NCBI GenBank assembly: GCA_004154925.1
Contig: QJNS01000022.1
Location: 248,001-312,000, forward strand
Direction of reading: 5' to 3'
Source of the DNA: Monosporascus cannonballus
Lineage: Eukaryota > Ascomycota > Sordariomycetes > Xylariales
DNA: 64,000 nt
Below, one piece after another: positions 6,555 to 35,672 of the stretch. Position 1 is the stretch's first letter. Each line of letters starts with the position of its first letter. The notes beneath the pieces are model-generated. The model was not told the DNA's origin. It worked only from the letters and a program-made list of their open reading frames with translations, and ran no database searches. Both the position numbers and the translations under genes were made by a program.

Positions 6555-9490
6555 GGATCTCTCTTTTCCCTAAATGTTGCTTTTAAGATTTTTTCCAGTA
6601 AATTCTTTTTTATCTGCTAATATATCCCGGCGAATTATTAAAAATCGCAAACGTATTAATTAAAAAGAAAAACGTAAAACCTTAGTTTATTTTGTTTTTA
6701 ACTCTGGTTTTGAAATTATACTTTATATATTTTATTTCCGTACTAGGAAGTTATGCATTATATGGGAAATTTTGACGCGTTATTAATAATATATCTTCAA
6801 AAAACGATATTTCGGTAATTCCAGTATTTCTTTTTTCGCCTTAAATAATATTAATAAAAAAATACAACATTTAAAAACAGAAAGGTTTTCCGTTCGTTAA
6901 TACCTACCTAATATTCGTTAGAAATTATTAAAAGTATTTCGTCGTTTAAATCAGATATTATTTCGTTTAAATCGTTTTTATAGTTGACAGAATTTTCTTT
7001 GCAAAAAAGGTATAAAAATCATTAATCGAGATTTTCAGTTTTTAGGTAAACTAAAAAAAACAAAAAAGGCCGATTATTTAAAGGCGGAACGTAACCGTTT
7101 GGAAACTGAGTTTCGTACCGTTTTTTCCGAATGATTTTATTTTTCGGACCTTATTATAAACTTAAATTAGGACGCGATTATTTTTGGCGATTTCGTCGTT
7201 ATTAGTAAAAGTTATTTAATAAACGATAGGCGCTAATAAGACTTTTGGCGGGTTTCTAGGTATTTTTGAAATCCGGGACTTTTTCCATTTTATCAAGTAT
7301 TAGGTGAATCTATTTTTTTCGTATATCGAATATTTCTTTTACTTCGTAACTTGTTTTGTTTTTTACCTTTATATTATTTTATGGTATATTCATTTTAATC
7401 GTATTTATTATTAATTCGACTAATAAACTCAAAAGAATAAAATAGAACTTAAATTTTAAGAAGTATTTTAATTAATAATTGTTTTCTGAAATTTCTTAAC
7501 GATTTTGTACGGACAGATATATTTGAAATATTGTTTTTTGCTGGATTATTTTGTCTGAATATTCTTTATAGCGAGGTAATTTTTTTCGAAACTTGATGTT
7601 TTAAATCGTTTTTAATTATAATATTTATTTATCTGACCTCATAAAAACTTTACTTGTATTTTTATCTATTAATATAACTGTTTTAATTAATTTAGTTTAA
7701 AGATAGCCTTATCGTTAATTAAACCGTCGTCGCGTACTTTTCTGTAAGCTTCTATAATAAAATTAGAATTTACATATACTGGAGTTATCTTAATCCTTTC
7801 GTAACTGCTAGTATTATAGGCCAATTACGCAATTTATAATTTTTTAACTCAGTTATTTTAATTATAATTAATGTAATATCGTAAGTATGTTTCTACCCTT
7901 TAATTTGTTCGTTTTATTTATTGATTGATTCTAATTTGAAAGCGATAAATAACTTATAATTTATAGTAATTTATGCTATAAATATTTGCAAAAATTTAAA
8001 TGCGAATATTAATTTTCTGTTCAAAATAGTTTCTATTAATTATCCTGATATGCCAAAGATATATCTAAAGAAAATATATGCTATTTGTTCGCCATTTATG
8101 ACCTTATAATATTGTAGGTAATAGGAAAGTTTTGTAATTCGATCGGCGATTCCGAAAATGCTGTCATAATGTACTTCTGTAACGTAATCTTTTAAGATAG
8201 AAAGTTTGGTAATAAAGTTGAATATAACTTAGTACCATAGTTGTTTTGCAATTGGTATCGGTTGTAATTTTTCGTATAGCTTATATCGTCGAGCGTTTAT
8301 TTTAGTACAAATATTATATTATTATATGATTTTCTATACTTCTTATTTCATTTTAGAAAATTAATAAATCCGTTATAATCTTTTTAACGTTTTGTAAATC
8401 TCTGGATGTCTATATAGTTAATATTCGTATATTTCTCGTGCTAGGTCATCCTTGTATTCTTTTAAAACTTATAATATGCCTATTTTTTAGTTTTTTAGAA
8501 AACTATTGTTATACTGTTTGATTTTCTGATATATATCAAAAAGCATTGCCCGAATTATCGCAATTTATCGTAAACCTAAATATCTTTTTATAATAGTATC
8601 AAAGATTATATGGCTAACTTTAACCAATTTTCTTTAAGGTTTGGTCACTTACTTAAAATATCGACTTTACCATTTTCTGAACTTATTCTGTAAATAATAA
8701 CGAAATCGAAATTCGGCAACTCTTTCATGTATCTTAATTATCGTCTTGTAACTTTTCTGGTCGTAATAAAAGGGATAAAATATTGATAGTCCGTATAAAC
8801 CTTGATCTAATATAAGTTTCCTTTTGAAAATATCTAAACTTTCGAAAAGCAGTAATAATAATATAAATTGTTTATTTGAAATATCATAGTTAAACTCGGC
8901 TCGTTTTAATTTGTAGGAAAAAAATATAATAGGGTATAATTTGCCTTAATTATTTCCTTATCTAATTATTGCGCTTAACCTATAATACGAAATATCGGTT
9001 TTTATCTTAACGAAATAAATTAAAATATATATAATTAACGTTTACTCGTTAATAATTGTATTTTTGACTCTTTAAAAAGCCTTTTTTTTATTTAAAACGT
9101 CCATTTAAACTGTTTTCCTATTTTTCGTAAGATTAATTAAAGACATAATTATTTTGTTAAAGTTTCGAATAAACTACCTGTAATAATTAATCTATTCGAA
9201 AAATGACTGAATCTTTTTGACCGTCGGTAACATTTGCTATTCGAGTTAATTGCAGCGATTTTCTTTAGATTTAATCTGATATATTGTAGTACAATAATAT
9301 ATTCCAGATGTCCTATTTTTGAAGTTTAAAATTAAGTTTTTTTAATGTTAACTAGTAATCTTACATTCTATAAAAGTTAAAAATCTTATAAATGTATCTT
9401 ATATATGCTTTTTTCGTTTTCGAAAAAAATAAAAATGTCGTTAAGATAGCATATAACAAAAACGTCGAAATATTTTCGAAACATATACTT
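6555..9490 (-). mobile_element. Gypsy element A, 3' half (RT to chromodomain)
   Basis: Degraded pol of a chromodomain-type Gypsy (chromovirus-like) retrotransposon read on the - strand. From 9,490 downwards it holds the second half of the reverse transcriptase, with the YxDD box as YLND at about 9,436-9,460, then RNase H near 8.7-9.0 kb, integrase near 7.6-8.4 kb and a chromodomain remnant near 7.3 kb. The order is the same as in elements B and D. The RT starts abruptly at 9,490, directly behind a truncated pogo transposase. The missing first half is on the opposite strand at 33,797-35,672. Stops are mainly TAA, typical of RIP. Confidence 0.8.
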
Positions 9491-10560
9491 TACCATATTA
9501 TCGGTTGTTATAATAGCTTTAAACGCGTTGCAGAAACAGGCGATAAAATCTTTTTTAGCGATATAAGTAACGTACTGCTATATAAGATTTTCGATATTCA
9601 GCGACTAAGCGCGTTTTAATACGGAAAAATAAGATATGTCAAAAGGTTAAAATCGATAAATAGAATAAGTAAATATACAAAGCGTAATAATACCGTTATT
9701 CGCGTAATAATTTTCAAATTTGATCGAATAATAATTTTTGTAAGCCTCAAAAATAAAAAAACTGTTCGAACTTCTCCTATATATTTTAAGCTATTTGCCA
9801 AAATATTTAATTTATTTTAAACTTAATTTATTTCTTACCCAGCCGTTTTCACTTATATCAAATCTTTAGTCTGGTGGAAGAAGACTATTAGCGAACCAGC
9901 GAAAAAGGTAGTTTTTTCCAGAAAAGATAATAGATAGAGGTAAAGCCTAACTTTAAGAGTTAACGGATTATATTATTATAAATTATTCCTGATATCCGTA
10001 TTACGCTTATTTCAGTCTTTTACGTTTTTTAACGTTAATAATAACTATGTTTATTGCCATAAGAAATTCTATTAAAAATTTCGTTTCGTCAAAGTTGTAA
10101 ATATCCTTTTTTGCAATATTATATTTTGCGATTATAATCCGTATAAGTTCAAATTATTTCCGAAAACCTTTTAGATTTTGGTATAAAATGTTTTGGTAAT
10201 TTATCGGTCGATTTAAATGCGTTTTAATTTGTTTTGCCGTTTATTAAATTTAAATACTTAATTAACCCTAACGCTCATTGCGACGCGTTACGTAAACAGA
10301 AAATTCGCTATATTTTTAACGTATTGAAACCGGGTAGGAAACATTCGCGTATGTAAGTTAAGAACTTTTTAGATAATCGATTTCTTTTCGATTGGCGTTA
10401 CTTTTTATAATGGAGCAATAATATCGGCTCGGGCGCGTATATCGTTATATCGTGGTTTTAAGATAGAATATAGGATATCATAAATAGAACTAAGTTTCTT
10501 TTAATTAATTTTCGGGTTAATTTCTTAGCTTGAACGGCTAAGTTTATTTTCGATTATTTT
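9491..10560 (-). pseudogene. pogo-like transposase, N-terminal and DDE part
   Basis: Encoded the DDE transposase of a pogo/Fot1-type element; now full of stops. Reading the - strand and allowing TAA for original CAA or TGG, a CENP-B-type helix-turn-helix segment is visible near 10,270-10,345 (FPTRFQYV then NIANFL). The first catalytic Asp lies in YNFDET at about 10,083-10,100. This is followed by a GNREW-like block, FSGKNYL, ENGW, a degraded DGHESH block and the IITLC...LQPLDI-like block, with the third Asp kept in PFDISYFSVLK. The frame runs to ITTDNM near 9,500 and then changes into Gypsy A reverse transcriptase. RIP-type mutation and the inversion breakpoint both inactivate it. Confidence 0.8.
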
Positions 10561-10629
10561 GTAAGCTGTTCTATATCGTAATGGTTGAAAAATAAATAAT
10601 TGAAGTCGGATGATTAAATTGTTAAAAGA

Positions 10630-10674
10630 AAGTGTCCAGTCCATTTATCTATCCAGCTTACTTATGTAATACGT
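10630..10674. repeat. Terminal inverted repeat of pogo element
   Basis: Matches the reverse complement of the end at 36,317-36,361 through the blocks CATAAGT, AGCTGGA and CTGGACACTTT, differing mostly by C/T or G/A changes. A TA dinucleotide follows, the expected Tc1/mariner target duplication. Confidence 0.75.
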
Positions 10675-13600
10675 TAATATTTATTATACATTTTGGAAAA
10701 CAAAACAGAAAAAATAGTTTCGATTATTTACTTAGAAATTTATTGAAAATACGATAAAATAAAAATGTTTAATAAGGCATTATATAATTTACTAAAGGAT
10801 AATATAATTAACAAAATGAGAGCAGCAATATCAATTAAAATATATAAGACAATGTAAAAAATAAATAAAGTTGCAAAAACGATACATATAATAACTTAAC
10901 GTATGATAAAAAAATATATAAGTAAAGTTCGATAAAATTCAAAGAAGATTTTGAAAAAGATTATTTGTAAAAGATTAGGAAATACTGAAACCTAAAAGAA
11001 TTAAAAAGAATTTTCAAAAAGATTTTAAATATAACGATAACAGGTATCAACGATGTTATAATTATAAACATATAAATCGAAATACATTATTATAACAATC
11101 AATTACGTAGTTTTAAATCGAAACTATTTTATGCTTAAATTTATTAATACGTTTACATCATTATAAAAATAAAAATACAAGTGTTATATAATTATAAATA
11201 ATAAAAGGTATCTTTTCATTACAAGAATAAAAGCAATTTAACGCAAATTTAATTCATTTGAAATCTTTAAATGAAAATAATATTAAATAATTAACTTTAA
11301 TATTGTATTACATCAAGTTTACAATATAATGTTAAGAAAATTGTGTATATATTAACATCAATTTAAATCAATAAACAAAACTTAATTTAGTAAAATTTAG
11401 TATAGGTTTTATTAAAAAGATAGATTTTAAAATGTTTACTTTATAATATTCGATATAACATAAAGATTAAAATAAATATGAAAATAGAATTAATTTCTTA
11501 ATATATTTAAGAGCCTAATATTATTAAAGATCTTATATATTAAAAACGGGTAACATATTTTTTCTCTTATTAAACATATTTAAGTGATTTAATAATAATA
11601 TAAATTCATAATATTAAAACTTCAAACACTTAACGAACATACTATTGTAAGATAATAAATGCTATCAAGTTTTTAAAAATGAATTTAATAGAAAATTATT
11701 AAAATATAACGAATAAAATTATAGACTACTATTAAAAAAGGTTTTATAAATTAAATTCTACTTTATTTATTATTTTAATGGATAAAACAAATGCGTTTTA
11801 AAATATATTTGAGCAATGTATTATAATGATAATAAATCAGATTTTCTAACTTATTTATACCAGATTTTAAATCTTTTATATATTGAGAAAATAATAAATT
11901 TCACTTTATAATTAATTAAATATAACTCAGCGTTATTATTAATACGAATCACATATACATTCTTTTATTTATTAATAGAAAAAACCGAATTTACGAAATT
12001 ATATAATTTACAATATGGGATTTCAAAAATATATATAATTATTAAAAGAACTTTAAAAAAAATTAATAAAGAAAATAATACTGGAAACAAGAGAGATATT
12101 TCTTAAAAATTTAATTATAATGATTTAATTTACGAAAGTATTAGTAGTTCAAAAACGGATAATGTATTATATATTACTAATATATTTCGATATTTATATT
12201 ATGTATTATTTCGAGCATATATTTAATTGTTTAAAACTTTAAAAAATATATGTAAAATATGTATATTAATATTTGAACATTTTTAGAACCATATATTAAT
12301 AATACAACACTAACAAATAATGATTTTAATAATGGAAAATAAAATATTTATTATATATAGTAATTATATATATATTAAGATAAATTTTAAACATTGATTA
12401 CAATTATTAAAATAATAAACATTAACAATGAATCAAGCAGCAAATCTATTTTTTCGATTTATTAATTATTAAAAGAAATCCATCCGAAATTTTAGTAAAA
12501 TGATTATATATTTAATTAAATTTAAATCAAAAGCGTATAGAAATATTCTAAGTAAAGAAATACATTAAAGATTAAATGTATAACTATTAACGAGCTAATA
12601 TTTGTTATATAAAGATATATATATTGCATTAGATTAAAAGTCCGTATTTTAAATTATGTTTTATACATAATAATCAAATACTAAAAGAATTAAGACAAAT
12701 TATATTTAATTATATAGTTGCGTATAAAATGGGAAAAAAAGAAGTTAATTATGTTATTTTAAATAAATAATTTAATCTTATTACTATGGTTTTTCTAAGA
12801 TTTCCTTATCTTAAATTAAAGTTCATACAGATTATTAGAATTGCATTTAAATATATTACGATCAAAACGTTTTCGAAACTATAATTACAATATATTTAAA
12901 AATAGAATAATTAGTATTTTAAGTAAATAATTAAAGTCTTAAAAAACGGTTCTAATATTATTTACATTATTTTCGATATTGTATTTTAAAAATATGTACT
13001 TTTGTATTAAATTATAATATATCGGATTATATTATAAGGTATATATTAAACAAATTGAAAATTTAACAATAGTTTATTAAAGACCAAATACTACAATATT
13101 TAGAAATGATAGAATATAGTAAGTAACTTTTTTAATGACTATATATATATAATAAATATATAAATATATGAAATTTTAGAAAACTTTCAAATAATTTGAA
13201 AATATTTATTTACTATTATCCATGATACTATATGGATTTAAAAAAAATATGATAATAATGTACTTATTATAATAAACGGAAATCGTACAAATATAACAAT
13301 TATAGAAAACTATTATCATAATTAATTTTAAAACAATTATGGACTTTAGTAATTAACACATTTACTATTAAATTTCTTTTATGAAAATCATATAACAAAG
13401 ATATATTACGAAAATATTTTCCCAATTATTAATCTATTTTCCTAATTATTATTATATTTACAAAATAGTGTTATTTTGCAATTTAAAAATATTTTATAAA
13501 GATGAAATAGATTATATTTAAATTTTACAAAAACAATTTTGAAATATATAGATTTTTATACGAAACTATTTTCTATAAACAATTACGTCCATTTTTAAAG

Positions 13601-14813
13601 TTTAACAAAACGTTATTGTATAAGTCGACTTAAATTATAAATTATTAAATATTTTTAATTCTTAAAGAAATAAATAACCGAACTAATGAAATTGAAATTG
13701 AAAAACAAATTTAAAATATTAGTTTAAGTAAGAACACAATACTTAGTTTCAAGTATTATTTATTAGAAAACTATTTAAATTATTTTTATAAACCTAAACT
13801 CTATTTCAATTTTTAAAATTTAAAAAAACGTATAACGAATTTCTTATTGTTAAAATAATGTTTACGTCGAAATAGTTTAAATCAATATACGGAGAAATTA
13901 AAAAGCGATAGAATTCGTACGTAATTAAATATATAAATATTATAATTAAAGGAACTATAAGAAAGGAATTTTTCGAAAGAAAAATAAAATAATTTTAATA
14001 TAAAAATATATTTAAATAAAAGGATTTAATAACAAATATTATTAAGATTTATCCTTGACGAAATAATAAAGATTTTCGATATAAAAAAGAAAATAGGTTT
14101 ACTTAATATGTAATTAAATAAAAAGAATATCCAAATTTCAAAAATGCTTAAAAACTTAGAAAAAACCTTGTAAATACCTAATATTTATTAAAAAACCTGT
14201 ATTAATAATATCGAAGGTCTTTTACGAAATAAGAATATTAATCATTAATTAATTAGCAATATTAAGGTTAACCCAATTAATAGAGCTTATAATAAATACC
14301 GAAACAGTTATTTCGGCAATTAATTATTTATGTTTTTATTTTACAGGTTCGAATTCGGTTATTATTTGAGTATTTTTAATATAATAACGACATATGTTTA
14401 TGGCTCGACGATAAAGAATTTTCCGTTATTTTTTAAAAACGATTTAATTTGTTAATAACGATATATAACGCCTTGCGAACTTATTTTTTCTTATATTTTA
14501 AACCGTTCTTTTTGTTAAGAAAAACGTTATATTTCATTTCGAAACGTTCAAAAACGTTATAAACATTACTGTAATAAATATACAGCCTACATTTTTGGGA
14601 ATTCGGAAAAATATTTCAATTTATTTTTTCGATTTTATTAAAAAAGAAAAAAATTAAAATAAAACTTAAACAAACAATTCGTTTTAATAAAAGAAAAGCG
14701 TTATTACATTCATACGAACGACGCTTTTTAAGATAATTTAATATAATAAAATAGAGAACGGGAAAATATTTACAAAGATTTTCAGGAAGTGATTTTTGAA
14801 AAGAAGAAAATGG
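10675..14813 (+). mobile_element. Gypsy element G, gag-middle to 3' end
   Basis: Heavily mutated Gypsy retrotransposon read on the + strand. A gag region matching the one near 29.4 kb in element B lies at about 10,980-11,100, pol follows, and a chromodomain remnant is at about 14,080-14,230. It begins inside gag at the pogo terminal repeat. The missing 5' part (gag start and 5' LTR) is on the opposite strand at 36,362-38,500. Combined internal length, without the MITE, is about 5.66 kb against 5.86 kb in element B. Confidence 0.7.
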
Positions 14814-15206
14814 TATTATAATCCGATATGTCTAATAAATTTAAAAAACAGTTTGAATAAAAATAAAACTAAACTCGATACAAAATGAATTACTTAACGA
14901 GCTTAAGGCTTTTAATAACTTTAATAACTTAATTTTATAAAGTTATATAAAAAGATTAAAAAGCTTAAAAGACGTAAAAAGATACACTTCTTAGGCACCC
15001 TAAGTATATAATAAAATTTATACATTTATTATTTCTACACTTAAATAATATTAATTCGTAATAAAATATCTTTATTTAAAATATTTCTGGTACTACGAAA
15101 TATAACCAATTTACTGTATTCGTTACTTAAAGTCTTATAATACTTCTCTTAACATAAACTCGTAAAACGAATATTTAATAGTTGGTTAAACCGTCTAGCG
15201 GTCACA
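14814..15206 (+). repeat. 3' LTR of Gypsy element G
   Basis: A 393-bp LTR beginning TATTATAATCC and ending in GGTCACA. It belongs to the same LTR family as element C and has exactly the same length as the LTR at 38,108-38,500, its presumed partner. Confidence 0.75.
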
Positions 15207-16322
15207 TATATGTCATTAATTAAATTAATATGATACCGAAAAACGATGAAAACTATAAACCTTCGATAAAGAAAAAAGTTTACCTCATTATTAAAAACGC
15301 TTAAATAACACGACGTAACAAAAATTTCGATTTTAAATATATCGACCTATATAAAATGTCTTAAGATATTTTAAAAATATAAATACTAAATAAAACATTT
15401 ATTAAAAGTTAAGTTTTATTTAATGCTTTATTTATTTACTGAAATAACCAGCAAATACTTTTAAAATCCAGACGAAATAAACCATATATAAAAAGATTAT
15501 AATATTGCTTATCAAATAAAAATATCTTTTTATACAGAAGAAAACAGACTTATTTAATACCTAATTAAATAAAGAAAGTATCCAAATTTCGAAAATATTT
15601 AAAAACTTCTAGACCTCTTATAAATACTTAATACTTATTAAAAGGTTTGTTAACGGTGACGAAAATATTTATAATAATATTCGAATTCACATTTTTAATA
15701 ACAACAGAAAAGAATTAATGGACCTATACGGCTGATTAATTAACCGCTAGATTGGAGGACGTAACCGCGGCCTTCGGTCGTTTTTTCACTCTTAGCTGGT
15801 TTAAATTCTTAATTTTGTAGCAAATTATTTCGGATATTTCTTTTATTTGAAAAAAACCTGTTTTTGAATATTTTAAACGTTTCAAACGAACTAAGACCCA
15901 TAAAAAAGAAAACTCGAGCTTTTTTTTAAAAAGGTTTATTTTTTTTTGCAATACGCGCGCTATTAAGATCGTAAGCAAGAAACGGCGACAAGAGAAAATA
16001 GACGTACTGGTTTGAATATACACCCTATTAAAATCATAATACGCGTATTTTTATCAATGTAAAAATTACAACGCACTTCATTTTTCGTAATAATGCAACT
16101 ATAAAAATTCAAGTAAAAATATACAAAATAACGAAATATGCTTATATTAAATTTATTAATAAAGGAAATTAGGCTATTAAGTATCTGAAATTAAGATTTT
16201 AATTTTAGCGTTTTTTAAAAACATAATCCGATATGATAAGCAATAATAAACACATTATTTATTATATATCATCGGTAGAATATTAATCTTTAATAAAAGA
16301 AATCTCGACAAAAGTAAAACCA
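15207..16322 (+). mobile_element. Gypsy element F, integrase end and chromodomain
   Basis: The 3' end of pol of another Gypsy element on the + strand. The integrase C-terminal segment is at about 15,290-15,370 and the chromodomain at about 15,540-15,640, both aligning with 32.4-32.75 kb of element B. The upstream remainder is found at 38,501 onward on the opposite strand. Aligned with element B, the two pieces join at the position where element G interrupts them. Confidence 0.65.
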
Positions 16323-16717
16323 TATTATGGCCTAATGCCTCATAACTCTAAGAAAACGGTCGAGATAAAATATTACATATTTTCGACCTTAGCGGAAACC
16401 TACGTACGATAAATTTGTCGAATAAAGTCGGGTGGATTATATTCGATGAATGGTAGACTAAAATCGATTCCCTTATAATTAACAAGTAATAAAATACATA
16501 TTATATAATTATTAGGATAAATTAAAACAAAAATACAGTTATTTCCATTTATACGATATAATGAATATTATTTTAAATACGATTTTCTTATTTAGAATAT
16601 TTACCATATTATAAAATGTAATTAAAATATTTATTATTTAAATTTTTTAGGAGTTTTATAAAATATATATTCGTATAACTGAAGCTTTTATAATTACTTA
16701 AAAGTTCAACCGTTATA
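16323..16717 (+). repeat. 3' LTR of Gypsy element F
   Basis: About 395 bp, beginning TATTATGGCC and ending CCGTTATA, in the same orientation as the pol fragment before it. It most resembles the element A LTR family (a GACCC...GGTCG...-type start) but is strongly degraded. Confidence 0.6.
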
Positions 16718-17237
16718 ATATTAAACAAATTCATACATATTGATTTCGTATTATAAGTGTAAAAGGCTTTACCTAGGCGGTCTACAATCAGTTGCCAATG
16801 AGAGTTTTTTTTCTAGGTAAAGAGAAAAGAAAGGGAAGATGAAAATACAGTTGTGTGTGTTCGCATATAAGGCGCTGCGCTAGTGCTGCTTGGTACCGGC
16901 GTTTGTCCGGTGCTCCATAATAGGGCTTCATACAGCCCCATCACAATAAGCTCCTTAATATAGCTAGATAATGGAAAATAACGTTTTGTTAGTATTTTAA
17001 TTAAAAAGTAGTATTTTACACCTTAAAACCATATTAACTTTCGAACATAAGCTCGTTATTTAGCTTAATTTTGGTCAACCTTTTAATGTATTTACAATAA
17101 TTCCGTGAATAATTTCTCAGTAACGCTTAGAGAAAAACGATAGTGGATTAAGTAAAGAACCGAAGTTGGCAAAGGTAATTTTTGAAAACTGCAACAAAAC
17201 AATAATACATGCTTGGAATTTGACAATTCAACTAATA
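16718..17237. other. Spacer between Gypsy F and Gypsy C
   Basis: Mixed composition. A GC-richer patch at about 16,770-16,960 includes a short inverted repeat (CTTTACCTAG / CTAGGTAAAG, about 40 bp apart) and a run of GGCGCTGCGC-type sequence. No reading frame is worth calling. It may be host DNA or a small unmutated insertion. TAATA at 17,233-17,237 is the left target duplication of element C. Confidence 0.4.
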
Positions 17238-17630
17238 TATAACAGTTAAGCGGTTTAACCAATTATGAAAACTAAGTCGTACGAGTTTATAGTAGCAAAT
17301 GCATTATAGGATTATAAGTACCAAGTAAAATAATATATTCCGTTTCATAGTATTAAAAAGCTTTTAAATAAGGAATTATTATCATAGGCTTGTATTACCT
17401 AAGTCATAGAAATAATAAATATATAAATTTTATTTTTAATTTAAGGTGTTTAAATGATTTAATCTTTTAAACTTTTTAAATATCCTAATTTCTTTATATA
17501 GTTTAATAGGTTTAAAAAGTTAAGAGCTTTAAAAACTTTAACATTATTACCAAATTTCCTTTGTATTAGATTTAATGTTAATTTTACTTTAACCGTTTCA
17601 TGGCTTCGCTAAACTTATTTGATTATAATA
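17238..17630 (-). repeat. 3' LTR of Gypsy element C
   Basis: 393 bp, starting TATAACAGTTAAG and ending GATTATAATA. Same family and length as the element G LTRs. Confidence 0.75.
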
Positions 17631-20600
17631 CAATTTTTTCTTTTTTAAAACTTTTGTTCCGAAACTTTTATAAAATTCTCCAGTTTTTATTATAGCAGAT
17701 TTAATTATATTAAGAACTTTCGTTCGCGGTAATATATTAACATTCTTTCTATTAAAATGCATTGTTTAGTGATGTTTTATTATGTGTTTTTATTTTTGTT
17801 TTTAAAAAAAGCAATTATTAGATTTTTCGCAATTCCGAAAAATATATACGATATATTTATTATAGTAATACTTATAATGTGTTTCGGCCAATTAAAATTA
17901 AATATAAAAAGAGTTTTAATAAAAATTCGTTTAAAAGCTGAATAAAAGCAGGTTGAAAAAATGTTGTATATTATTATTATAAAATTAAATAATTTATGTA
18001 TATAACGACAAATTCTTTATTATAAAGATATGGAAATATTTTGTCGTATTATTAAAGGCGCTGAAAGAATGGAAATATTCCAATATTTTAGGCGAAAAGA
18101 GAACAATTAATAATTGAAGTAACCGTTTTAAAATTTATTGTAATTTCGATTAATGAAACTAATGTAAATATTATCGATAAATTAATTATTAATTTAACTC
18201 TTCTACAAAATAGTCTCGGCGTTATTAAAAGAAATTCCGTAATAAATATTAAGTATTTATGAGGCCTTTCGTTAGTTTTTAAATATTTTCGATATTCGAA
18301 AGTGTTTTTATATAATTAAAGAACAAGTAAATGTATTTTTTATATTAAATAACTTTTTTATTTTATATGGAATATAATTTTTATATTTTGATATTATTCC
18401 TTTTCGTATAAACCGTAATAAAATTTAATATTCATATAAGGAAAAAAATATCTAGAATTCTTTTAATTTTAATTGTAGATCACAGCTTTAATTAATAATT
18501 ATTTTTTAACATTTCTTTGATTGTCTTATACCGATCCATACATTTAAAAGTGAAATCTTTATTAATTCGGTATATTTAATTTTTTTATAACGAAATAAAT
18601 TAATTTCTTTTAAAAAATTAGGTTTTTTAACTTGTAGTGAAAATAATATTTATTAATTTAATTATTTGTGAATTTTTAATTTAATTTTACTTTTTTAATA
18701 TCAATATTTAAATAATTCCCATATAAGTATTATGTCACAGTTTATATATTTGTTGCATATAGATTAACAAATATTATATATAATATCGAAATTTATATAA
18801 ATTTAAACTATTTTAATAGTTTTGTAATATTTAACGGTACAAAATATTTAACCAAAATGACCTCTTTAATTTAATTGATTTATAAGAAATCTATATAATA
18901 ATTTAAATATATGTTTAGTATTAAATTTAACCGGTTTATCCATATATTTACTTAAAATTTAAATACGATATATATTTTACATTATACAGCAATTTATATT
19001 ATAAATTTCTATTAAAACTTAACGATAATTATAAATGTTTGTTAAAAAGTGCTTTAATGTTATAATTTATATTATTTACTAAGTAGAAATATTTTGTGTA
19101 GAGTAGAAAATAGAGAATTTCGTAAATGTATTAATAATAATAAAATATTAACGTAACATACTTTTATTGATTAGAGTTTCGAATAAACAAATTAATAATA
19201 CAATTTATAATAATTAAAGTTTATAACTGGCTAAAAATAGGTAATGCTTATAATTTTATAATTTTCTTCAAACGCTTAATAATTATAATCTTTCGTAAGA
19301 TTTGCGTCGTTTTATCTTCACTTTATTATAAAACTTATATTATTATCATGTTTTTAAATAATAATAAATAGGCTAGAGATTTTTTAAAACTTTATATATA
19401 TTACAGGTTAAATATATCTTCTGACTTTCTATTAAGTTCTTATTATAGATTTTTAAATTCTTTTAATATAAACGTAAATATTGTGTTAAAATAATATTAA
19501 AAAATATACCAGAAATTTTTATTGATTTTCTAAGTATTGTTATAATTAATAACGAAATCAAGATATATTACTATTTTTATATATCGTAATTATAAGTCTG
19601 CAAAGGGTTTAATCATAATAAAGTATTTAAGATTTTTGTAATCTATATAAATCATAATTTATTAAAATTTTCCTTCGAAAAAAAAAACGCAAAATGTCGA
19701 AAACTTATAAAAATAATTGAAGGTTTTGAATTTCAAAAAATATAATTAAAACCAATTTGATTTAATTTATACGAAAGAAATAGTATGATTTTAATCTACT
19801 TTAGTATTTACGTTATTCGATTATTATATTTAACGCGCAATGTGAAGTATTGGTACTTAATATAATACAACCTATTGAATCGTGTATAATTAATATTACT
19901 TCATGAATAATTATATCTTTACAGTTTTAGACTATTTTTATTTTTTATAATGTTTATTTAAATCTTTTTTTAGTGAAGTGAATAAACCGTATAAGAATTT
20001 TATTATAATTTGCACAAACCTTTTATACTAATCAATAAATCCGAAAGATATTTATTATTTTCAAATTGTTGATAAATTATATTATTTTATAATCATTATA
20101 ATTCTATTTATATTTATATCAAGATGGTTGAAAATCATAATATATTTTCAATATTGTATTATCATTTATAACACTGACATTCTCTACGCTAAATTAGAAC
20201 TTTATAAAATATGAAATAGAAAAATATATATATATTATATATATTTTTCACTGTTCGAACAAATATTATTAAAATACTATATACTAAACATATCTAACTA
20301 GTTTTATTATATATAATTTATAACTTGTTAAATTATTATTAATACGTTTGTAGATCTCACTTACGTAATTAAATATTCTAACAATTTATATTTTAGTGTT
20401 GAAAAATATTTTTATATGTATACTTTTTAATTTAATAATGTGATATTTACTTTTAAAAGTAAATATTACAATTTATTTAATATCGTAAAAACAGCTTTTT
20501 ATTTTAATAATAATAGAAAATAATAATCAACTTCTATTAATAACAGCATTTGATGCTTTATAATTATATCTAAGTTCTAATTTATTATTTTAATTAAGTA

Positions 20601-24277: not shown

Positions 24278-25195
24278 ATGAGGGTGTCTCTAAGCTCCCT
24301 GTTTCTGGTGATAACGACAGCAGCGATGGTCATCGCTGGGCCGACTGGTAGCCCTTTCGATAAACGGCAGTTTATAAGTGCCCCTAATGGTACACACGAT
24401 GGATATTTCTACGTATTGTGGACCGATGGGGGCAGCCAACTTACATATACCAATGAAGCGGGCGGGCAATACAGTGTAGTATGGGGTCGAGGCGATGGCG
24501 GTGGGAACTTCTTTGGTGGGAAAGGATGGAAAATGGGAGGCAACAGGTACGGCAGTAAAGAGTTCCCCCCGTTCGTTTATAAACTAACATGGCGCAAAGG
24601 ACTATAGAGTACTCTGGGACTTACCAGCCAGATGGCAACAGCGTAGGTGTATTCCCAAGGTTTGATCAGGCTCTAACGGTATCGGACACCAAGGACCCCT
24701 AACCCTTCTTAACGTTAGCAAGGAGCTCACTGATCCTGTATTAGTACCTTGCCGTCTATGGCTGGACACGGGACCCGTTGGTCGATTACTACGTGATCGA
24801 GAACTTCGGCAGCTACGACCCAAGCTCTCAGGGTAAGAAGATGGGTTCCGTCAGCTGCGACGGAGGACAATACGACCTCTATCAGAACCAGCGTGTCATC
24901 TGGCCTGGTGGGGTGGCACGCCAGTATTTGTCTATCGTGAGTTCTCGCTGACGTTAAGCTTTGAAGTCGTTCTCAGTCTCACAGCTACTGTGTGAGTGCT
25001 GTATGTACATAGGTGGTCGTTAACGGCACACAGCGCACAGAAAAACGAACGGGTGGCACTGTCACTACTGGCTGTCATTTCACCACCTGGGAACAGAATG
25101 GGATGGGATTAGGATCACATGACTTCATGATTGTTGCCGTTGAAGGTTATTGGAGCAGCGGACAGGCTACCATTCGTGTCGACTCGCCACCGTAA
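24278..25195 (+). CDS. GH11 endo-1,4-beta-xylanase family protein, probably impaired
   Basis: Glycoside hydrolase family 11 proteins are secreted enzymes that cut the xylan backbone. Four exons (24278-24546, 24600-24642, 24745-24936, 25034-25195) with GT...AG introns give 221 codons with no stop, a normal GH11 length. A signal peptide covers residues 1 to about 20 and a Lys-Arg processing site is at 29-30. The beta-jelly-roll blocks WTDGG, GGKGW, YSGTY, YLAVYGW, YDLY and VTTGCHF are present. The acid/base Glu lies in [10 protein letters not shown] (E205). The nucleophile motif reads [10 protein letters not shown], so the essential Glu is Asp (residue 118). The thumb segment normally containing QPSI and GTATF is replaced by WPGGVAR and is about four residues short. 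It is single copy inside a RIPped repeat field. The inference is a decaying or non-catalytic GH11 protein. Confidence 0.85.
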
Positions 25196-25523
25196 GGGGC
25201 GGTTCGGGAACTTTCAGCAAAGGCGGCTGATTCTGATGATAGCCAGGTTTTTCTAGCAATGTATTTTAGGGCTTATACCCCCAGGTGCGTTTCTCTTTTG
25301 CTGGTGGATACTATTTCCTTTTTCGGCGTTGCACCTAATTGAAATTAATGATTTTTTAGTTATTACTATAAGTACGGTTTTAAGTTTCAGTAACGAAATC
25401 GGTACTGAAAGAGTTGCAGGGCGACAACTGATCTGTTTTAATTCGTGGAATGTTGCGACCTTCATACAGAATGGTCAAACAGCAAGGTATTTGTTGAACC
25501 TAGCAACGGCTTAGTTAGCTAAC
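25196..25523. other. 3' flank of GH11 gene
   Basis: Normal to slightly AT-rich host DNA downstream of the stop codon. Only short chance frames are present. It ends with CTAAC at 25,519-25,523, the target duplication beside the 5' LTR of element A. Confidence 0.5.
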
Positions 25524-25946
25524 TGTTATGACCCAACCAGGGGGGGTCTCGGAAACGGTCGCGAAATGACCAAAACAGGACGCAAGTGGGTCAAGACCAC
25601 GTGACATGGATCCGAAGTGATCCAAGGGATCTAACGAGATCCATGCAGTTATCCGATATAGATTCGAAGTAATATAAAGGATCTAATGAGATCCAAGCAA
25701 TTATCCAATAGAAATTCGAAAAAGATCTAAAGGATTTAACGATATTCAGAAAAAATATATATACGTTTATTATTTCCATAATTTAGATAGCATTAATTTG
25801 TAATATAATTTTGTTATCTAAAACGTTTTTAATATTATTAAATATAATACGTTAAAATATTTATTACTTGAATTTCTACGATAATCCTGCTAATATAAAC
25901 TTGTACGATTTAGGTTTAATAATTAGTAAACCGTTTAACCGTTATA
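25524..25946 (+). repeat. 5' LTR of Gypsy element A
   Basis: 423 bp beginning TGTTATGACCC. Its outer 150 bp are nearly unmutated. It contains three or four GATCTAACGAGATCC-like short repeats and ends CCGTTATA. It pairs with the LTR at 6,133-6,554 in inverted orientation. The preceding CTAAC equals the CTAAT beside the partner after one C-to-T change. Confidence 0.85.
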
Positions 25947-27150
25947 CGTTACAAATTTTTGTTCAATAATATCGTTAGACTTTGAGCAATATCGCCGATA
26001 CTATATATACCAACAAGCAACCCGAAGAGTCTACGTACCAGGTCCTTAATAACTCGGACATTAAAATAAAATCTAAGGAACAAAAGAAGTAACCTTACCT
26101 TTCTCGAGAAAAAGTTTTTCGACGCCTAGATATTACAAACGAATGTATTATTTAGCTTGAAAAAACCAAGAATAATCTTAGAATGTTTTTTAAACTATTT
26201 ATAAAACGTTTAAAAAAAGTTTTCGCAATTAAGAAACCTCTTTAAACGAACTAAAAAATTTAGCTAAATTTTTTGAACTACAATTTTTTAACGAACTTTT
26301 AATTAAATTATAATTATTTTTATTTTAATATCGAACTTATATTAGGTATTCTTTTATTTCATTTATTATGCTTATTATACGAATCGAATATGCGGTTATT
26401 TAATTTGAATTTAATATACAGAAATATATTATTTTATTAATAAAACCCGAAAGCAATACGATTTTATAAGGATGATAAATAATATAAATAAATATTAATA
26501 AAGGGTTTGAGAATAATAAACGAAAAATCCCAAATCGAAATATATATCTAATAATTACGACAAAATAGATTAGCATCTAATTATGGTAACGTGTTTATCC
26601 AGTTAATATCCAAGTTAAACTAGAGATAAAAAATGTTAATAATTAAATTTTTCGAAAATATAAAAAAAGAAAATACAGGAAAAGATGTTTACGGTTAATC
26701 GACCCGAATATTTATCGGATTATATTGTTATAACTGTTAAAATTGATGACTGACAATATACTTAACATACTAAAGATACCAGAAGAAAAATAATAACAAA
26801 TCTCGACATACGGCTAATACCGACTGTCTTCGACGTAATAACACTTTTAATAATATAAAGCCAAATGCTATGGAATTCAAAATAAGGGGAAAAAAGATTA
26901 AAGCCAGATTAAATCCTTTATTTACAAGAAAATAAGACATAAGATAACGTAATATAAGGCACTTAAAAAACCCCGATAGGATAACTGGAAACCCGTACTC
27001 GAAAGATAATCAAAAAAAAAACAGCGATAACAAGACTATTAACATGATTCGGGTTAAGTACGTACTAGCCCTATTATAGCGAAAAGTTTAATAAAGAATA
27101 CAAAAAGCCAAAAGATTTATCCGAAAAGAGTCCAAAAAATAATAAAATAC
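25947..27150 (+). mobile_element. Gypsy element A, 5' gag region
   Basis: A degraded gag-type region on the + strand following the 5' LTR, with the same spacing as in element B. It is interrupted at 27,150 by element B. The duplicated 5-bp site AATAC (27,146-27,150 and 33,797-33,801) marks the insertion, and gag resumes at 33,797. Confidence 0.75.
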
Positions 27151-27545
27151 TGTTATAACCTAACGGTCTTGGCTTCTTCCCGGACGGTTAGGACCATAAG
27201 AGGAACGGGTCCCACCTTAGCCAAGACGTTATGTAATTAGCTCAAAGGTTTCAAAGCGCCAAGCACCTTAAGCCCCTTAAGCCAGCAAAAGGGCTTAAAG
27301 GACTTAAAGGTCTTAAGGGTTTAAGCTGTTTAAATATCTTAAGCTAAGATAAAAATATATACGTTTATTATTTTCATAATTTAAATAATTTTAATTTGCA
27401 ATATAATATCGTTATCCAAAATATTTTTAATATTACGAAACGTAATACGTTATTATATTTATTATTTAAATTCTTACGATATTTTTGTTAATATAAACCT
27501 GTCGATTTAAAGTTTAATAATTAGTTAAATTATTTAGCCGTTATA
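27151..27545 (+). repeat. 5' LTR of Gypsy element B
   Basis: 395 bp, TGTTATAACC to CCGTTATA. It contains a run of short CTTAAG-spaced repeats (GGGCTTAAAGGACTTAAAGG type). Its outer half is less mutated than its inner half. Confidence 0.88.
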
Positions 27546-30289
27546 CGTTATAAATTTTTGTTTAATAATACTGTTAAACTTTAAGTAATATTTAATATTA
27601 TTAAAATATCGACCAATATTTAAAAAACCCTTATTTAACAGCTTTAAGTTCGAATTCGGGAGCTGAAAAAAAAAATTCGATAATTTAAGGCTATATTTAC
27701 TTAACCTTTTTTCGTTCGTATAAAACCGAAAAAACCAGAACTTTACGATAAAAAAATAATTTTTAAACTTTTTTAACTTAGGCATAAGTTTATTTTCGTT
27801 TTTTAAATTTTAATAACCCAGCGGATATAATCCTAATAATAAAAGTATATTTGATAAAAAATACGGCTAATTAATTTAAACTTATTATAAAAAAATTTTT
27901 AAAAATAAAAAAAGCAAATAAGGAAAATTTTATTAATAAAATCTTTTTAACTTATACCAATTTCGAAAATAAAATACGCAATAATTTCGGTAATCCGGAT
28001 AAAAACCGATTAACGGTTTAATAATTTTTATAATTCCGATAAAAAGAATCTGTATCCAAATACGCCGTAACCTTTAAAAGTTTTGTAATTAAGGCAGGAT
28101 AAAAAAATAACAAAACCGATATTTTTATTAATATATTTTACAAAAAATTAAAAAATAATATAAAGAATAAAATTATTCGGATCGAACGATTAATTACTTT
28201 AAATCGGTATATTACAAAAGTAATTAAAATTAACAATTAATAATTTAAAAAACGATAGGAAAAAAAAGATAATATACCTTATATTCGGAATATAAATTCA
28301 ATTAAGGGAAAAAAAAATATACCCCTTATTTCTTACGGAACGGCGTTAGGACTTATGGAATTCGGCAATACTTACAGATAAAATTAAAATCAGATTAAAT
28401 GCTTTAATTACGGCAAAATAGGACATAAAACCTATAAATATAAGAAACCCAAAAAATTACAACAAAATAATTAAATCCTTATACCGGAAAAATAACCCAG
28501 GAATAATTAAGGAAATAATAACAAAATTATTAATATAATTTAAACCAAATACGTATTAAGCTTTAAATAAAAGGTCTAACTAGGCCTATTTTAATAAGAA
28601 ATTTGACGAAAAATACGAAAAGCTAAAAAGCTAATTTGATAAGTATTACGAACATAACAAAAGGCATTATAAAATAATTATATAAATACCGAAATTAAAT
28701 AAAAAAGCTTTATCCCGGAATACTTAATTAATACGGCAAAATATATATTGTATATTGTCGACAACGAAAATATCCTAATTACGAAAAATAAAAATAATAT
28801 ATTTACGTACGAATTACCCGTATATATTATAAAAGATTCGATTTTTTAAATCGAACCGGGTATAACAAAAACGACAAATAATAATATTAACAATTTCGAA
28901 CCAAAGCTCTAGGAAATATCTAACAATTGGCCGAAGTAAAAAGCTGGCCCGAAAAAAAGCAGTACCCGCAAAAAAACCCCTTTTATTATTATGGATAATA
29001 TAATTACTAAACGGAAAAAGGTTAATCCAGCGTACGGTAAAAAAGCATTATCAGAAAATTATTATGGACCTTTATTTTCAATTAGCATTTATTATAAATC
29101 CTTACGAAAAAAAAGGTTATTAAGGAAAAAATATATTAATTTATAGAAAATCTTTAAAACGACAGCCAAAATAACGCATAAAAGGATATAATTACAAACA
29201 TAAAAAAACAATTTATTTAATAAGAAAAGAAAGTACAAAAAAATCAGGAATAATTAATACAGTTCGAAGAAACAATACGCCAATAACAACAATAAATACA
29301 GCAGCTTAATACGTTAAACAAAAAAATACAAATAAGGTTCGACCGATTCGAACAAAAATTTAAAAAAAAAGTTACTTATAAAAAAGCTGCAAAATAACGA
29401 AACCCAGAAAAATTAAAAGGAATTTCCAAAAAAGGCTTTAAATGCGACGATAAGAAACGTTAATAACCTTATTACTTTGGACATACGAATCGGAACGTAT
29501 TAATATACCGTAATAATGGATTACGGAATTCTAAACGGAAATAATATTATACCAAATATATTTAATAAATTTAAATTATTATAAAAACACAAATTAAAAC
29601 CTTATATAACGACAAATGCCGAAAATTAAGAATTCGTTTACGATAACGGAAAAATTATACGCGAAATTAATTACCTTAGGAATTTTATCTAAAAATGATA
29701 TTAAACGGTTAATTTCGATATCGTTTTATTTAGGAATTACGACATAATTTTAAAATTATTTTAAATATGCCAGTACGGAATTTTAATTAACGGCGGAACT
29801 AATTAAATAAAATTCGTTTTATTTCCTGTTAATAAATAAAAAACAAAAAAATTAAAATCTTAACATTCGATCGATAATGGCGACGAATACAGGTATAAGG
29901 ATATAATAAATACCTTATTACCTAATAGAATAAAATATAAAAAAAAATAAGCATCAAAAAAAATACGACGTATTATTGTTATTATCAAAGCGAAATTAAG
30001 ATAATTGAATAACGATTTAAAATAACAAAAATAATAGCTTAAGGGATTAAAATTTTTAATTAATGTATTATTACAATATCATAAATACGAATATCTTTTC
30101 AAAAAAAAAGCTCGACATAAAGTTATCGGAACATAGTAAATAAGATTACGAAATAATTTTTAAAAAAGGATTTTCGCCGAAGTTTTACCTTATTTACAAC
30201 TTTAGCGGAAATAAGTTACGTATTCTTAAAAAATACTTAAAAAATCGTTTACAAAAAAAAAAGATTTAACTCTCGAAATTACTAGTAGA

Positions 30290-30900
30290 ACACCTTATAT
30301 TCTTTGTACCTAAGAAAAATGGGAAATTGCGATTTGTGGTTAACTATCGACAACTAAACGACATCATTGTCAAGGATCGAACATTATTACCCTTAATTAC
30401 GGAAATAAAAAACCGATTTTACGGAGCCAAATAATTCACAGCATTCGATCTCAGAAATGGATATAACCTTATCAGGATCAAGAAAGGATACGGATAGTAA
30501 ACTACGTACTACAAGAATACCTCGATGTTTTCGTCGTTTGCTATCTCGACGACATTCTTATCTTTTCAAAAACGGAAAAAGCATACGTAAGATACGTTCA
30601 CAAAGTTTTTCAAGCTTTACAAAACGCAAAATTGCTTATTAACGCAAAAAAAAGTTAATTCCATATATAGAAAATGGAATATCTGGGACATATTATTACC
30701 CCAGAACATATTAAGATGGACCCTAAGAAAATCGCTGCAATCATAGAATGGCAAACGCCAAACATAGTTAAGGAGGTATAGGTATTTTTTGGATTCGCCA
30801 ATTATTACAAAAAGTTTATTCAAAATTTTAACAAAATAACCATACCCTTAATAAATCTTACGAAAAAAAAAGAATTTAAATAAATTCCAAATACGGAAAA
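30290..30900 (+). pseudogene. Reverse transcriptase remnant of Gypsy B
   Basis: The reverse transcriptase core is readable: GKLRFVVNYRQLND at about 30,321-30,360, then ITEIKNRFYGAK and FDLRNGYNLIRIKK, and the active-site box CYLDDILIF at about 30,540. About 45 codons are missing between IKKGY and the Y-L-Q-E-Y-L segment, removing the conserved NAPATFQ region found in related elements. Downstream, the connection segment GHIITPE and FFGFANYY is still legible. This stretch keeps noticeably more G and C than the rest of element B. Confidence 0.8.
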
Positions 30901-33401
30901 AATATTTCAGGATATTAAGAATATAATTATTAGCAAATTAGTATTAATTATGTACGATTTAAATTATTTTATTAAATTAAAAACTAATATTTCGGATTAC
31001 TTATTAAGCGTAATAATCAAATAACGAAATAATTAAGAGAAAATATATCTTATAATATTTTTTTCGTACAAATTAAAAAAACCGAATTTAATTACGATAT
31101 TCCAAATAAGGAATTTATGGTTATTATTATGGCATTTTAGAAATTTGGGTATTTTTTAAAGGGAAACTTATACCAAATTAAGGTTTATACGGATTATCAA
31201 AATTTTACCCGATTTACCATAACCAGGGAGTTTATAAAACGATAATTTTGTTACGCGGAAAAATTGGCGAACTTTGACTTCGTTATTATTTACAAAAAAA
31301 TCAGAAAACGGCAAAGTAAATGCCTTAAGCAAATAATTAAACCTTAAAAAGAAATTAGTTAAGGTTAATTATATAATTTTTAATATTATTACAAAAAGAT
31401 ATTTACGCTTATAACAAATTATGACGATTCAGGCAATATCTTTCGATATATATTAAAGAATTTAACAATATAACGATAATTTTTCAAAAAACAAAAAAAC
31501 GAATAAAATATAAATTCCAAAAAAAATACCACAAAGATCTAGTACGAAAAATATACGAATATCAATTACATAAATATCCAGGGATTTACAAAACCTTAGA
31601 AAAACTTTAACATATATATTTTTTTCTCAAAATAAAATTAATAATATAAAAAATTATACGGCAATGCAATATTTGTGCCAAAATAAAGGCTCGACGACAT
31701 AAGCCATACGGAAAATTACAAATATTATTAATTATAAACTAATTATAATATTTAATCATATTCGACTTTATTATTAAACTTTTTATATTAAAAAATCTAA
31801 TTATAGAAATATATTACGATAGCATTTTCGTAATCGTTAATCGATTTACGAAATTTTCATATTTTTTACCATATTATAAGGACATAAACGCCGAATAAAT
31901 AACATATATTTTTTAAACATATTTTTAATAAATACGGATTATTAATAGAAATTATTTCGGATAAAAGATCGATATTTGTATTTAAATTTTAGTAAAACTT
32001 TATTGCATTAATTAACTTAAATCATAAATTATTTAACGTTTTTAAACCTTGAACGGATAAATAAACAAAATAAACAAATTAAATTTTAAAAGTTTATTTA
32101 CGATATTATATTAATTACGAATAAAATAATTAAATTAAAAAGTTATTTATTACCTCATTAATTTATAACATTAATTATTACGAAAATATCAAAATAATAT
32201 TTGCAAATATAAATTTTGGTTTTATTTCAAAAATTTATAAAAAAAATACGCGATAATGGCCTCATTAATATCAAAGTAATTTTCGTATCGGAATAATTAC
32301 GGTAATTATATCAAAAAATAAAAACAAAATTAAAATTCGTACGAAATTAAATAAGCAAATATTATAATTAAAAAAAGTTAAAAAAATTAACTTTTGAAAA
32401 AAATGGTTTACTTAATTACCAAAAACATTTAAACAAAATAACTTAACAAAAAATTTGATTTTAAATATATCGGTTTATACAAAATCGCGAAGAAAATCGC
32501 AAAAAATATTTATTAATTGGAATTTTTACCAAAGGTTAAACTTTATCTAATTTTTTATGTTTCCTTATTCGAATTAATAACAAATACGATTAAGGTATAT
32601 ACGGTATAAAATAATATAAAAATAAAAAATAAATAGGTATACGAAATGGAAAAAATCCTCGATATACGAAAATAAAACGGATTTATTTAGTACCTAATTA
32701 AATGGAAAAAACACCCAAATTCCGAAAATACCTAGAAACCTGCTAAAAACCTTATTAATATTTAAGGCCTGTTAAAAAGTTTTTATTAATAACGATAAAC
32801 GCGTTTAAATCAATAATTAATTAATTAATAATTGGAATATCGAGCCAGTTAGCCGCGGCTTATGTTAACGAAACGGCCGTAATGGCGGCCTCCAATTATT
32901 ATTATTTTTTTTCCAAATACTTAAATTCTTTTATCGCTTTTATATTTTAAATACTTTAACGAAATATTTCCATACCGCAATAACGAAATAACCGCCCTTA
33001 TTTCTACAGGCGATCTAATTTGTTGGCAGCGGCCCGTAACGTTTTACGAACCTGCTTTTTTTCACATTTTAAACGATCTTTTTCGTTAAATAATTTGTAA
33101 TACTTAATTTCCCAAAGCCTAAAAACGTTATAAGGGCTACCATAATAAATATATCGCGTACATTTTAAAAATTTTCGAACGACCTTATATTTTATATTTT
33201 CCTTTTTGTAACAAAAACAAAAAAGTATTTTGAAACCAAAACGTTTAATACGTTTTGAAAAAATTAAAACGTTAATACCTTTACGAAAACGAGATTTTTC
33301 AATACGACCCGATATAATAAATATAAAAAAAGGAAAGTTACTTATTAAAAGTAATAAATAACTAATTTGATTTTTAAGGATAAAGATCTTAAAAAAAATC
33401 G

Positions 33402-33796
33402 TATTATAACCTAACGGTTTTGGCTTTTTCCCGGACAGATAAAACCACAAGAAAAACGGGTCCTACTTTAGCTAAAACGTTACGTAACTAACTTAAAGGT
33501 TTTAAAGCGCCAAGCACCTTAAACCCTTTAAACCAGCAAAAGGGCTTAAAGGACTTAAAGGTTTTAAGGGTTTAAGCTACTTAAACATTTTGAGCTAAGA
33601 TAAAAATATATACGTTCGTTATTTCCATAGTTTAGATAACTTTAGCTTACAATATAACATCGTTACCCAAAATGCCCTTGGAATTACGAGACGTAATACG
33701 TTACTATATCTATTGCTCAGATTCCCACGATACTCCTGCCAACATAAACCCATCGACTTAAGGTTTAATGGTTGGTTAAACCGCCTAGCCGTCACA
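33402..33796 (+). repeat. 3' LTR of Gypsy element B
   Basis: 395 bp, TATTATAACC to CGTCACA, followed by AATAC. Same length as the 5' LTR. An A-rich tract directly before it is the likely former polypurine tract. Confidence 0.88.
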
Positions 33797-35672
33797 AATA
33801 CCTTAAGAGAATAGCTAAAAAAAATTAGAAATAGACGAAGGGCATATATCTTCGAACACCTGATTAATACGGCAAAAAGTATGCTATATACTGCCGAAGA
33901 CGAAAATTCTCTTATTATAAAAGTCGAAACGGCAAATTTTAAGAGAAGTTAACTGTATATATTATAAAAGACTGGATTTTCCGAACCGAACTGGAAATAA
34001 TAAAAACAAATAATAATAGTATCGGTATTTCCAATCTATAGCCGTAGGAAACGATATTTACTAATTAATCGAAATAAAAAGCTGGCTCGAAAAAGAAATG
34101 CCCGTAAGAAAACCTTTTTTTGTTATTACGAATGATATAATTATTAGACGAGAAAGGAGTTAATCTGGTATACAGTAAAAAAATACTGCTAAAGAACTAT
34201 TATAGATTGTTATTTTTAATTAATATTTACAATAAACTTTAAAAATAGTTATTAAAAATTCGACTGTTTATAAATAAATTATAGAATAATACTTAGTACG
34301 ACGCGTAATGAAATGCGGTTAAATATATGGAAAAATAATTTACCTAATAAGGGAAAACGTTATAATAAAATTAAAAATATTTAATATGACTTAAAAGAAT
34401 ATTAGGCCGACAATAAGGAGAGATATAGTAACTTGACGCGCTGTATATAAAGATATAAATAAGGTTTGATAAATTCGAAAAAGAAATTTAAAAAAAGTTA
34501 CCACTAAAAAGCGGCAGGATAACGAAATTTAGAGAAATTAAGAAAAACTTCTAAGAAAGCCTTTAAACGTAACGATAAAAGCTATTAATAACCTTATTAT
34601 CTTGGATATACAAATTGAAATATACTAATATATCGTAATAATAAATTACAAAATTTTGGTCGGAAATTAAATTATACGGATGTGGTTAAAGAATATAAGT
34701 TATTACAGAGATATAAGTTAAAACCTTATAAAGCAACGAATGCCGAAAATCAGAAAGGCGTTTACTATAACAGAAAAATTATATGCGAAATTAATTATTT
34801 CGAGACTTTTGTCTAAGGACGATATTAGATAATAGATTTCGATATCGTTTTTTGTAAGAATTACGATCTGACCTCAAGATTACTATAAATGGCTAATATA
34901 GAATTTTGATCAAGGAGAGAATTGGCTAGGTAAAGTTTATTTTATTTTCTGTTAATAAATTAAAAAGTATAAGATTTTAATATTAGATCGAAATTAACGA
35001 CTAATATAGATATAAGAATATAACTAAAACCTTATTACTTAAAGGAATAAAATATAGAAAAAAGAATAGGTATTAAAAAAATACGACGTATTATTATGAT
35101 TATTAAAACAAAATTAAGGTGACTAAATAACGATCTTAAATAGCAGCACCAAAAATCAAAAAATCTAACCAATATACTATTATAATACTATAGATATAAA
35201 TAGCTGTTCAGGAAGGAACTCGATACGAAATTATTAGAATATATCAAATGGAATTATAAAATAATCTTTAAAAAAGGTTTTTTAACACAGTTTTATTTTA
35301 TTTATAATTTCAGCAAAAATATGTTGCGTACTTTTGGAGAATATCTGAAAAATCGGTTACAAAAGGGATAGATTTAATCTTCGACATTACTAGCAGAATA
35401 CTTTATGTTCTTGGTATTAAAAAAACGAAAAATTACGTTTTATGGTTATGTATCGATAACTAAACGATATTATTATTCTTAATCATAGAAAAAAGGATCA
35501 ACTTTACAGAACTAAATGACTTATAATATTCGACCTTAAAGACGGATATAACCTTATTAGGATTAAAAACAAATAATTAAAAAATAACTTTTAGGACGAA
35601 ATACGAATTGTTCAAATATTTCGTTACGTTAATGGGATTTACAAACGTGCCACCAATTTTCTAGCAAATTAA
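33797..35672 (+). mobile_element. Gypsy element A, gag to first half of RT
   Basis: Continuation of element A on the + strand after the nested element B. It holds gag and protease remnants (a knuckle-type region near 34.56-34.66 kb aligned with 29.45 kb of B) and the first half of the reverse transcriptase, ending GFTNVPPIFQQI (expected GxTNAPATFQ) at about 35,670. There it switches in one step into pogo transposase. The second half of the same RT is at 9,490 on the opposite strand. Confidence 0.8.

Follow-up and report, generated by a model that had tools for sequence, protein, structure and literature searches.

A probable 26-kb balanced inversion cutting a Gypsy and a pogo-like transposon in Monosporascus cannonballus

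The window analysed here is a 64-kb stretch of contig QJNS01000022.1 (positions 248,001 to 312,000) from the ascomycete Monosporascus cannonballus. Its GC content is mostly ~16-33%, the exceptions being an island around a GH11 xylanase-like gene at 24-26 kb and the right end, and there are no N bases in the whole window. Two transposable elements, a Gypsy retrotransposon (Gypsy A) and a pogo/Fot1-like DNA transposon, are each cut once, and their halves are exchanged at two joins. At the left join, read on the minus strand, the pogo N half (9,497-10,674) runs into the second half of Gypsy A (6,133-9,494) with a shared AT at 9,495-9,496 (CGATAAT-AT-GGTAAAG, AT = 9,496-9,495). At the right join, on the plus strand, the first half of Gypsy A, which ends at 35,667, runs into the pogo C half (35,670-36,361) with a shared AT at 35,668-35,669 (CTAGCAA-AT-TAAATCC). 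An earlier note, made from the letters of this DNA, had placed these joins near 9,490 (minus) and 35,672 (plus) and had called them reciprocal; both are present within 6 bases of those positions, and at the break positions every printed copy of the two families in this genome is uncut (24/24 for pogo, 23/23 for Gypsy). Judged from the bases alone, this arrangement very probably results from a balanced inversion of ~26.17 kb that cut Gypsy A and pogo, with end joining as the likeliest route.

The two joins were compared with the whole genome (88.8 Mb, 618 contigs), taking for each join or repeat query the best 40 scored places including the window itself. Full cover was reached by the window alone, both for the left-join query of 201 bases (40 of 851 candidates scored) and for the right-join query (40 of 976), while all 39 other places in either search matched one side only. 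The same chimeric joins at other places, which the earlier note had named as grounds for abandoning its reading, do not occur among these best 40 places per query. Most of the printed pogo copies read AAT-AT-YAAATCC or a near variant at the cut, and the uncut Gypsy copy L015 reads CTAGCAA-AT-GGTAAAC. Where both pogo halves matched the same place, they overlapped by 2 bases in 18 of 19 cases, with a 2-base gap in the remaining one, and at 21 of 22 loci the two Gypsy halves share one orientation and are separated by 0-43 unaligned bases. Base accounting across both cuts gives zero bases lost and zero duplicated, in line with the claim that nothing disappeared at the cuts. The 2-bp length of the shared sequence was likewise given correctly, but its letters are AT and not AA; similarly, the proposal that flipping the segment rejoins both proteins in frame holds for the local reading frames at either join, although many stops interrupt both elements.

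A second line of evidence lies at the ends of Gypsy A, which adjoin the two parts of a short repeat, S1. The S1 front (188 bases, 5,945-6,132, plus strand) lies outside the segment between the joins, adjoins the 3' long terminal repeat (LTR) of A and ends in A's target duplication (6,128-6,132). The S1 tail (32 bases, 25,492-25,523, minus strand) lies inside the segment, includes the other copy of this duplication (25,519-25,523) and adjoins the start of A's 5' LTR in flipped orientation. S1 recurs at 39 further scored places with 90-94% identity (best 40 of 659 candidates), and the eight copies that were fetched (L086-L093) are all uninterrupted at A's insertion point, each 220 or 221 bases long and with its own 5-base flanking duplication, perfect in six copies and at 4/5 in two. 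The two parts in the window add up to the expected 215 bases (188 + 32 - 5), with the 5-base duplication common to both and 5 repeat bases absent, and their outer flanks agree at four of five positions (CATAC/AATAC). Across the flip, A's target duplication reads CTAAC on the 5' LTR side and CTAAT on the 3' LTR side (4/5, a C/T difference); as controls, the nested Gypsy element E1 has AATAC/AATAC (5/5) and a further element, B, TTATG/TTATA (4/5). Both ends of A therefore belong to a single insertion that is now split and turned against itself, and this proof of the flip is independent of the breakpoint sequences. In its structure, S1 is a 220-bp TG...CA repeat with 5-bp flanking duplications that resembles a solo LTR or a terminal-repeat retrotransposon in miniature (TRIM). 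Its copies are of normal GC and free of repeat-induced point mutation (RIP) within a RIP-saturated genome, probably spared by their short length, and on another contig, C465 (690-1441), S1 pieces are clustered in either orientation.

On the right side, a comparable record is kept by the pogo element and its host, the older Gypsy C. The terminal inverted repeats of pogo, at 10,674 in the N half inside the segment and ending at 36,361 in the C half outside it, are flanked by TA at both outer ends (10,675-10,676 and 36,362-36,363), as seen by eye and as expected for pogo/Fot1 elements of the Tc1-mariner group; the match of the N half to DDE_1 is weak (17.2 bits against a cut-off of 22, E 0.0039, from a stop-masked piece). 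Beyond these TA dinucleotides, Gypsy C continues on either side, with its 3' part inside the segment (10,677-15,206, plus strand; 3' LTR 14,814-15,206, flank TATAT 15,207-15,211) and its 5' part outside (36,364-38,500, minus strand; 5' LTR beginning at 38,500, flank TATAT 38,501-38,505). Compared with E1, the 5' part of C matches best at E1 34-1659 and the 3' part at 1975-6646, i.e. in the correct order once the segment is turned back, and the target duplication of C agrees across the flip (TATAT/TATAT, 5/5).

Gypsy A itself is further interrupted by E1, a complete element nested in it (27,151-33,796, plus strand, with LTRs from 27,151 to ~27,544 and at 33,402-33,796). The 3' LTR of A lies at 6,133-6,554 in the second half, outside the segment, while the first half falls into two pieces on the plus strand inside it: the 5' LTR (25,524 to ~25,945) with a leader, together 25,524-27,150, and the remainder (33,797-35,667). 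Each piece includes one copy of the E1 target duplication (27,146-27,150 and 33,797-33,801). The earlier note had equated the first half with 33,797-35,672 alone, which has to be revised, as that stretch abuts the 3' LTR of E1 and the 5' LTR and leader of A lie beyond E1. The LTR at 33,402-33,796 was considered as the 5' LTR of A and ruled out, because the AATAC/AATAC flanks of E1 assign it to E1. The ~1.2-kb leader after A's 5' LTR has counterparts in the 5' regions of further members of the family, and these run on from the leader into the sequence that follows E1 here (e.g. in L040, with 12 bases between the two matches). With the start of A's LTR as query, 29 of the 39 other listed places begin within 25,523-25,526, and A's 3' LTR is the only place in the window that matches bases 1-217 of A's 5' LTR. 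LTRs with 5-bp target duplications, as expected of Ty3/Gypsy elements, are found in E1 and C at 5/5 and in A and B at 4/5. At the domain level, Integrase_H2C2 matches the second half of A weakly (23.8 bits against a cut-off of 25.5), short reverse-transcriptase and RNase H pieces gave no Pfam match, and the Gypsy order with reverse transcriptase upstream of integrase is what we take the translations, read by eye, to suggest. The LTRs of A and E1 have their last ~200 bases in common and differ in their 5' parts (25,524-25,740; 27,151-27,345; 6,340-6,555), and LTR variation in the 5' half is also described for crapaud in Podospora (PMC10787394). Within A's 5' LTR, GC drops from 0.52 to 0.17 (25,500-25,949), the outer part beside the GH11 island looking un-RIPped and the rest RIPped.

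The LTR pairs also give a relative chronology. Differences between the two LTRs of E1, a young Gypsy element, comprise 73 transitions versus 2 transversions (of ~395 positions), and those of the likewise young element B 53 versus 2. Such an excess of transitions is the pattern expected of RIP. Counted by transversions, the LTR pair of C differs at 38-42 of ~380-390 positions and that of A at 19 of ~420, and the contrast of 19 in A with 2 of ~395 in E1 fits a greater age of A than of E1. Copies of both the Gypsy and the pogo family are ~70-80% identical over long matches. The inversion is younger than both A and pogo, and its age is placed relative to these two and not to E1.

Both joins are accounted for by a single balanced inversion. 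The older insertions on the two sides, S1 and A on the left and C and pogo on the right, line up only after the segment is flipped back, and they support the flip that the earlier note had proposed as the origin of the joins. Turning back 9,495-35,669 (26,171-26,175 bp, depending on which side the shared AT is counted with at either end) restores both interrupted sequences through two reciprocal joins and makes the outside markers colinear, namely S1 with the A duplication and, more weakly, the order of C with its TATAT flanks. Gypsy A inserted into S1, and the pogo/Fot1-like element into the older Gypsy C; later double-strand breaks, one in A's reverse-transcriptase region and one in the pogo transposase region, would then have freed the DNA between them, which would have been rejoined in reverse without loss, likeliest by end joining. 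We infer this route because the cuts lie in unrelated families without homology across them: the cuts share 2 bases and no homology spans them, and neither cut shows an inverted duplication of breakpoint sequence, the sign of staggered breaks. Shared bases of chance length and the absence of loss are what end joining predicts, although a single case cannot prove the route. When pieces of these elements are cut at random positions, the probability of at least 2 shared bases is 0.24, so the 2-base AT is no evidence for a repair route or for microhomology-driven repair. The preference of the earlier note for end joining over homologous recombination is therefore kept, but not its reason, as a 2-bp sharing is at chance level. 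A plausible explanation for end joining at this locus is that RIP-diverged copies may be too different to recombine.

Several observations weigh against this reconstruction. One Gypsy locus (L038, 1 of 22) has the first half only. The TATAT flank of C is low-complexity, and ~500 bases of C beside pogo (36,364 to ~36,875) are unaligned to E1 where ~300 would be expected; this alignment gave no exact empty site of pogo in C. Between the 1-kb breakpoint neighbourhoods, the best match is an inverted one of 40 bases at 75%, ~390 bases off each cut (E 0.003), which we take as AT-rich noise. RIP polarity, compared to see if the halves had been mutated together and correlated between the halves of other copies (0.77 in 22 pogo and 0.73 in 21 Gypsy copies), is near zero at this locus; this agrees with an inversion and is not decisive, and AT-skew profiles across the joins show no clear step. 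Finally, the two LTRs of A are 0.045 apart by transversions, and for unrelated LTRs of the family, represented by 20 of the 39 places that the search with A's LTR start had listed, the median is 0.049; the 5' LTR (A5) and the 3' LTR (A3) are each closer to 2 of these 20 than to their partner. As a pairing test this distance gave no support, and it is S1, the target duplication and the element structure that identify the LTRs of A as a pair. We read the failure to pair as a sign of an old insertion, the pairs of E1 and B having 2 transversions each.

Among other explanations, an assembly error and replication-based template switching survive best, both at a low probability. In the former, the segment would have been flipped by the assembler or joined via chimeric reads, a concern insofar as published Monosporascus assemblies are short-read ones (Illumina, SPAdes) according to the assembly details in PMC7407469, if the present assembly is among them. 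However, an assembler flip needs shared sequence at both ends, where only 2 bases are common and no N occurs; family copies at the identity given above are distinguishable, and chimeric reads would have to strike the same two bases in both orientations. The assembly is in all likelihood correct. Template switching, by fork stalling or break-induced replication, could also have produced the inverted order. Short or zero shared bases at joins are expected of it too, but it usually leads to copied or unbalanced products, and here the two joins are exactly reciprocal and loss-free, with no duplicated sequence. Less probable still is recombination between inverted repeats whose traces were erased later; the window does hold inverted Gypsy copies at 72-83% identity, but the two families that were cut are unrelated, and the cuts show 2 shared bases, no spanning homology and no loss. 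A transposase-driven rearrangement, e.g. aberrant transposition by the pogo-like element, can be given next to no weight even though one cut falls in a DNA transposon, as that cut is internal, with neither a terminal repeat nor TA at the joins (the exchanged bases are AT) and with the element ends and their TA lying elsewhere. Two unrelated insertion or truncation events that look reciprocal by coincidence are just as improbable despite the dense nest of broken elements in this region, as no element end lies at either join, the halves of both elements fit together to the exact base, and independent agreement comes from S1 and the target duplications.

Apart from one complete Gypsy element (E1) and a GH11 gene, both correctly named in the earlier note, the inverted segment contains the S1 tail and the 3' part of Gypsy C, the pogo host. 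The GH11 xylanase-like gene (24,278-25,000 with approximate ends, plus strand) is the one clear gene of the segment, and a piece of its exon 1 matches PF00457 (E 1e-9). No second GH11 place that could show another gene order was found in the genome, where its DNA matches itself only. The inversion turned this gene around, for which we claim no effect. Downstream of GH11, a repeat at 25,185-25,487 has 32 other matches in the genome, mostly at ~70-74% identity. Towards the right end of the window, an ankyrin-repeat protein gene (61,506-63,188, minus strand) encodes a product at least one residue off a protein of Monosporascus sp. MC13-8B, and the reported match has 100% identity and covers 94% of the query; MC13-8B is given as M. 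cannonballus in the genus genome paper (PMC7407469).

Inversions associated with transposons are known from other systems. In Verticillium dahliae, 15 of 19 breakpoints of inversions and translocations colocalise with a repeat (PMC4971763), and that study places breakpoints mostly at transposons, as is the case here, and invokes breaks and faulty repair. The rearrangements reconstructed there followed sequence similarity and were read as homology-based repair, and therefore the present case differs, with its unrelated elements and no homology; moreover, a single genome suffices here to read the ancestral state. From Fusarium graminearum isolates, inversions in the same size range are reported, and a significant fraction of them overlaps repeats (PMC11152077), but those were found by isolate comparison, and the passages concerned contain no base-level reconstruction. 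Likewise, chromosomal inversions in the ascomycetes Neurospora tetrasperma (PMC5658415) and Sphaerulina musiva (PMC12778737, a study that also treats RIP and transposons) come from strain comparison, and loss-free cuts inside two transposons do not appear in the respective passages. Transposons are also involved in the inversions by Galileo in Drosophila (PMC2775673) and by alternative transposition in maize (PMC8225341), but those are described as driven by ectopic recombination or by a transposase acting on element ends, whereas neither ends nor homology are found at the joins described here. Literature searches brought up no description of this locus that we recognised in the portions of text returned, and in the main text of the Monosporascus genome paper (PMC7407469) the word 'repeat' occurs 0 times and inversions were not searched for.

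The event is ordinary in kind and unusually legible. Because the cut elements have intact relatives and insertion scars elsewhere in the genome, the ancestral state is readable from this one genome, together with polarity and relative age, and the locus is a tangible example of a rearrangement that runs through transposons and whose cuts lack repeat homology. As a tentative generalisation, on which we would not rely yet, copies in fungi with strong RIP might be too diverged for homologous recombination, so that end joining within the bulk of transposons might be the main source of inversions in AT-rich blocks, and nested, RIP-broken insertions might serve as a base-level record to find, polarise and order inversions in a single genome without a relative. 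The finding suggests a genome-wide search for elements that are split and have their reciprocal partners on the same contig.

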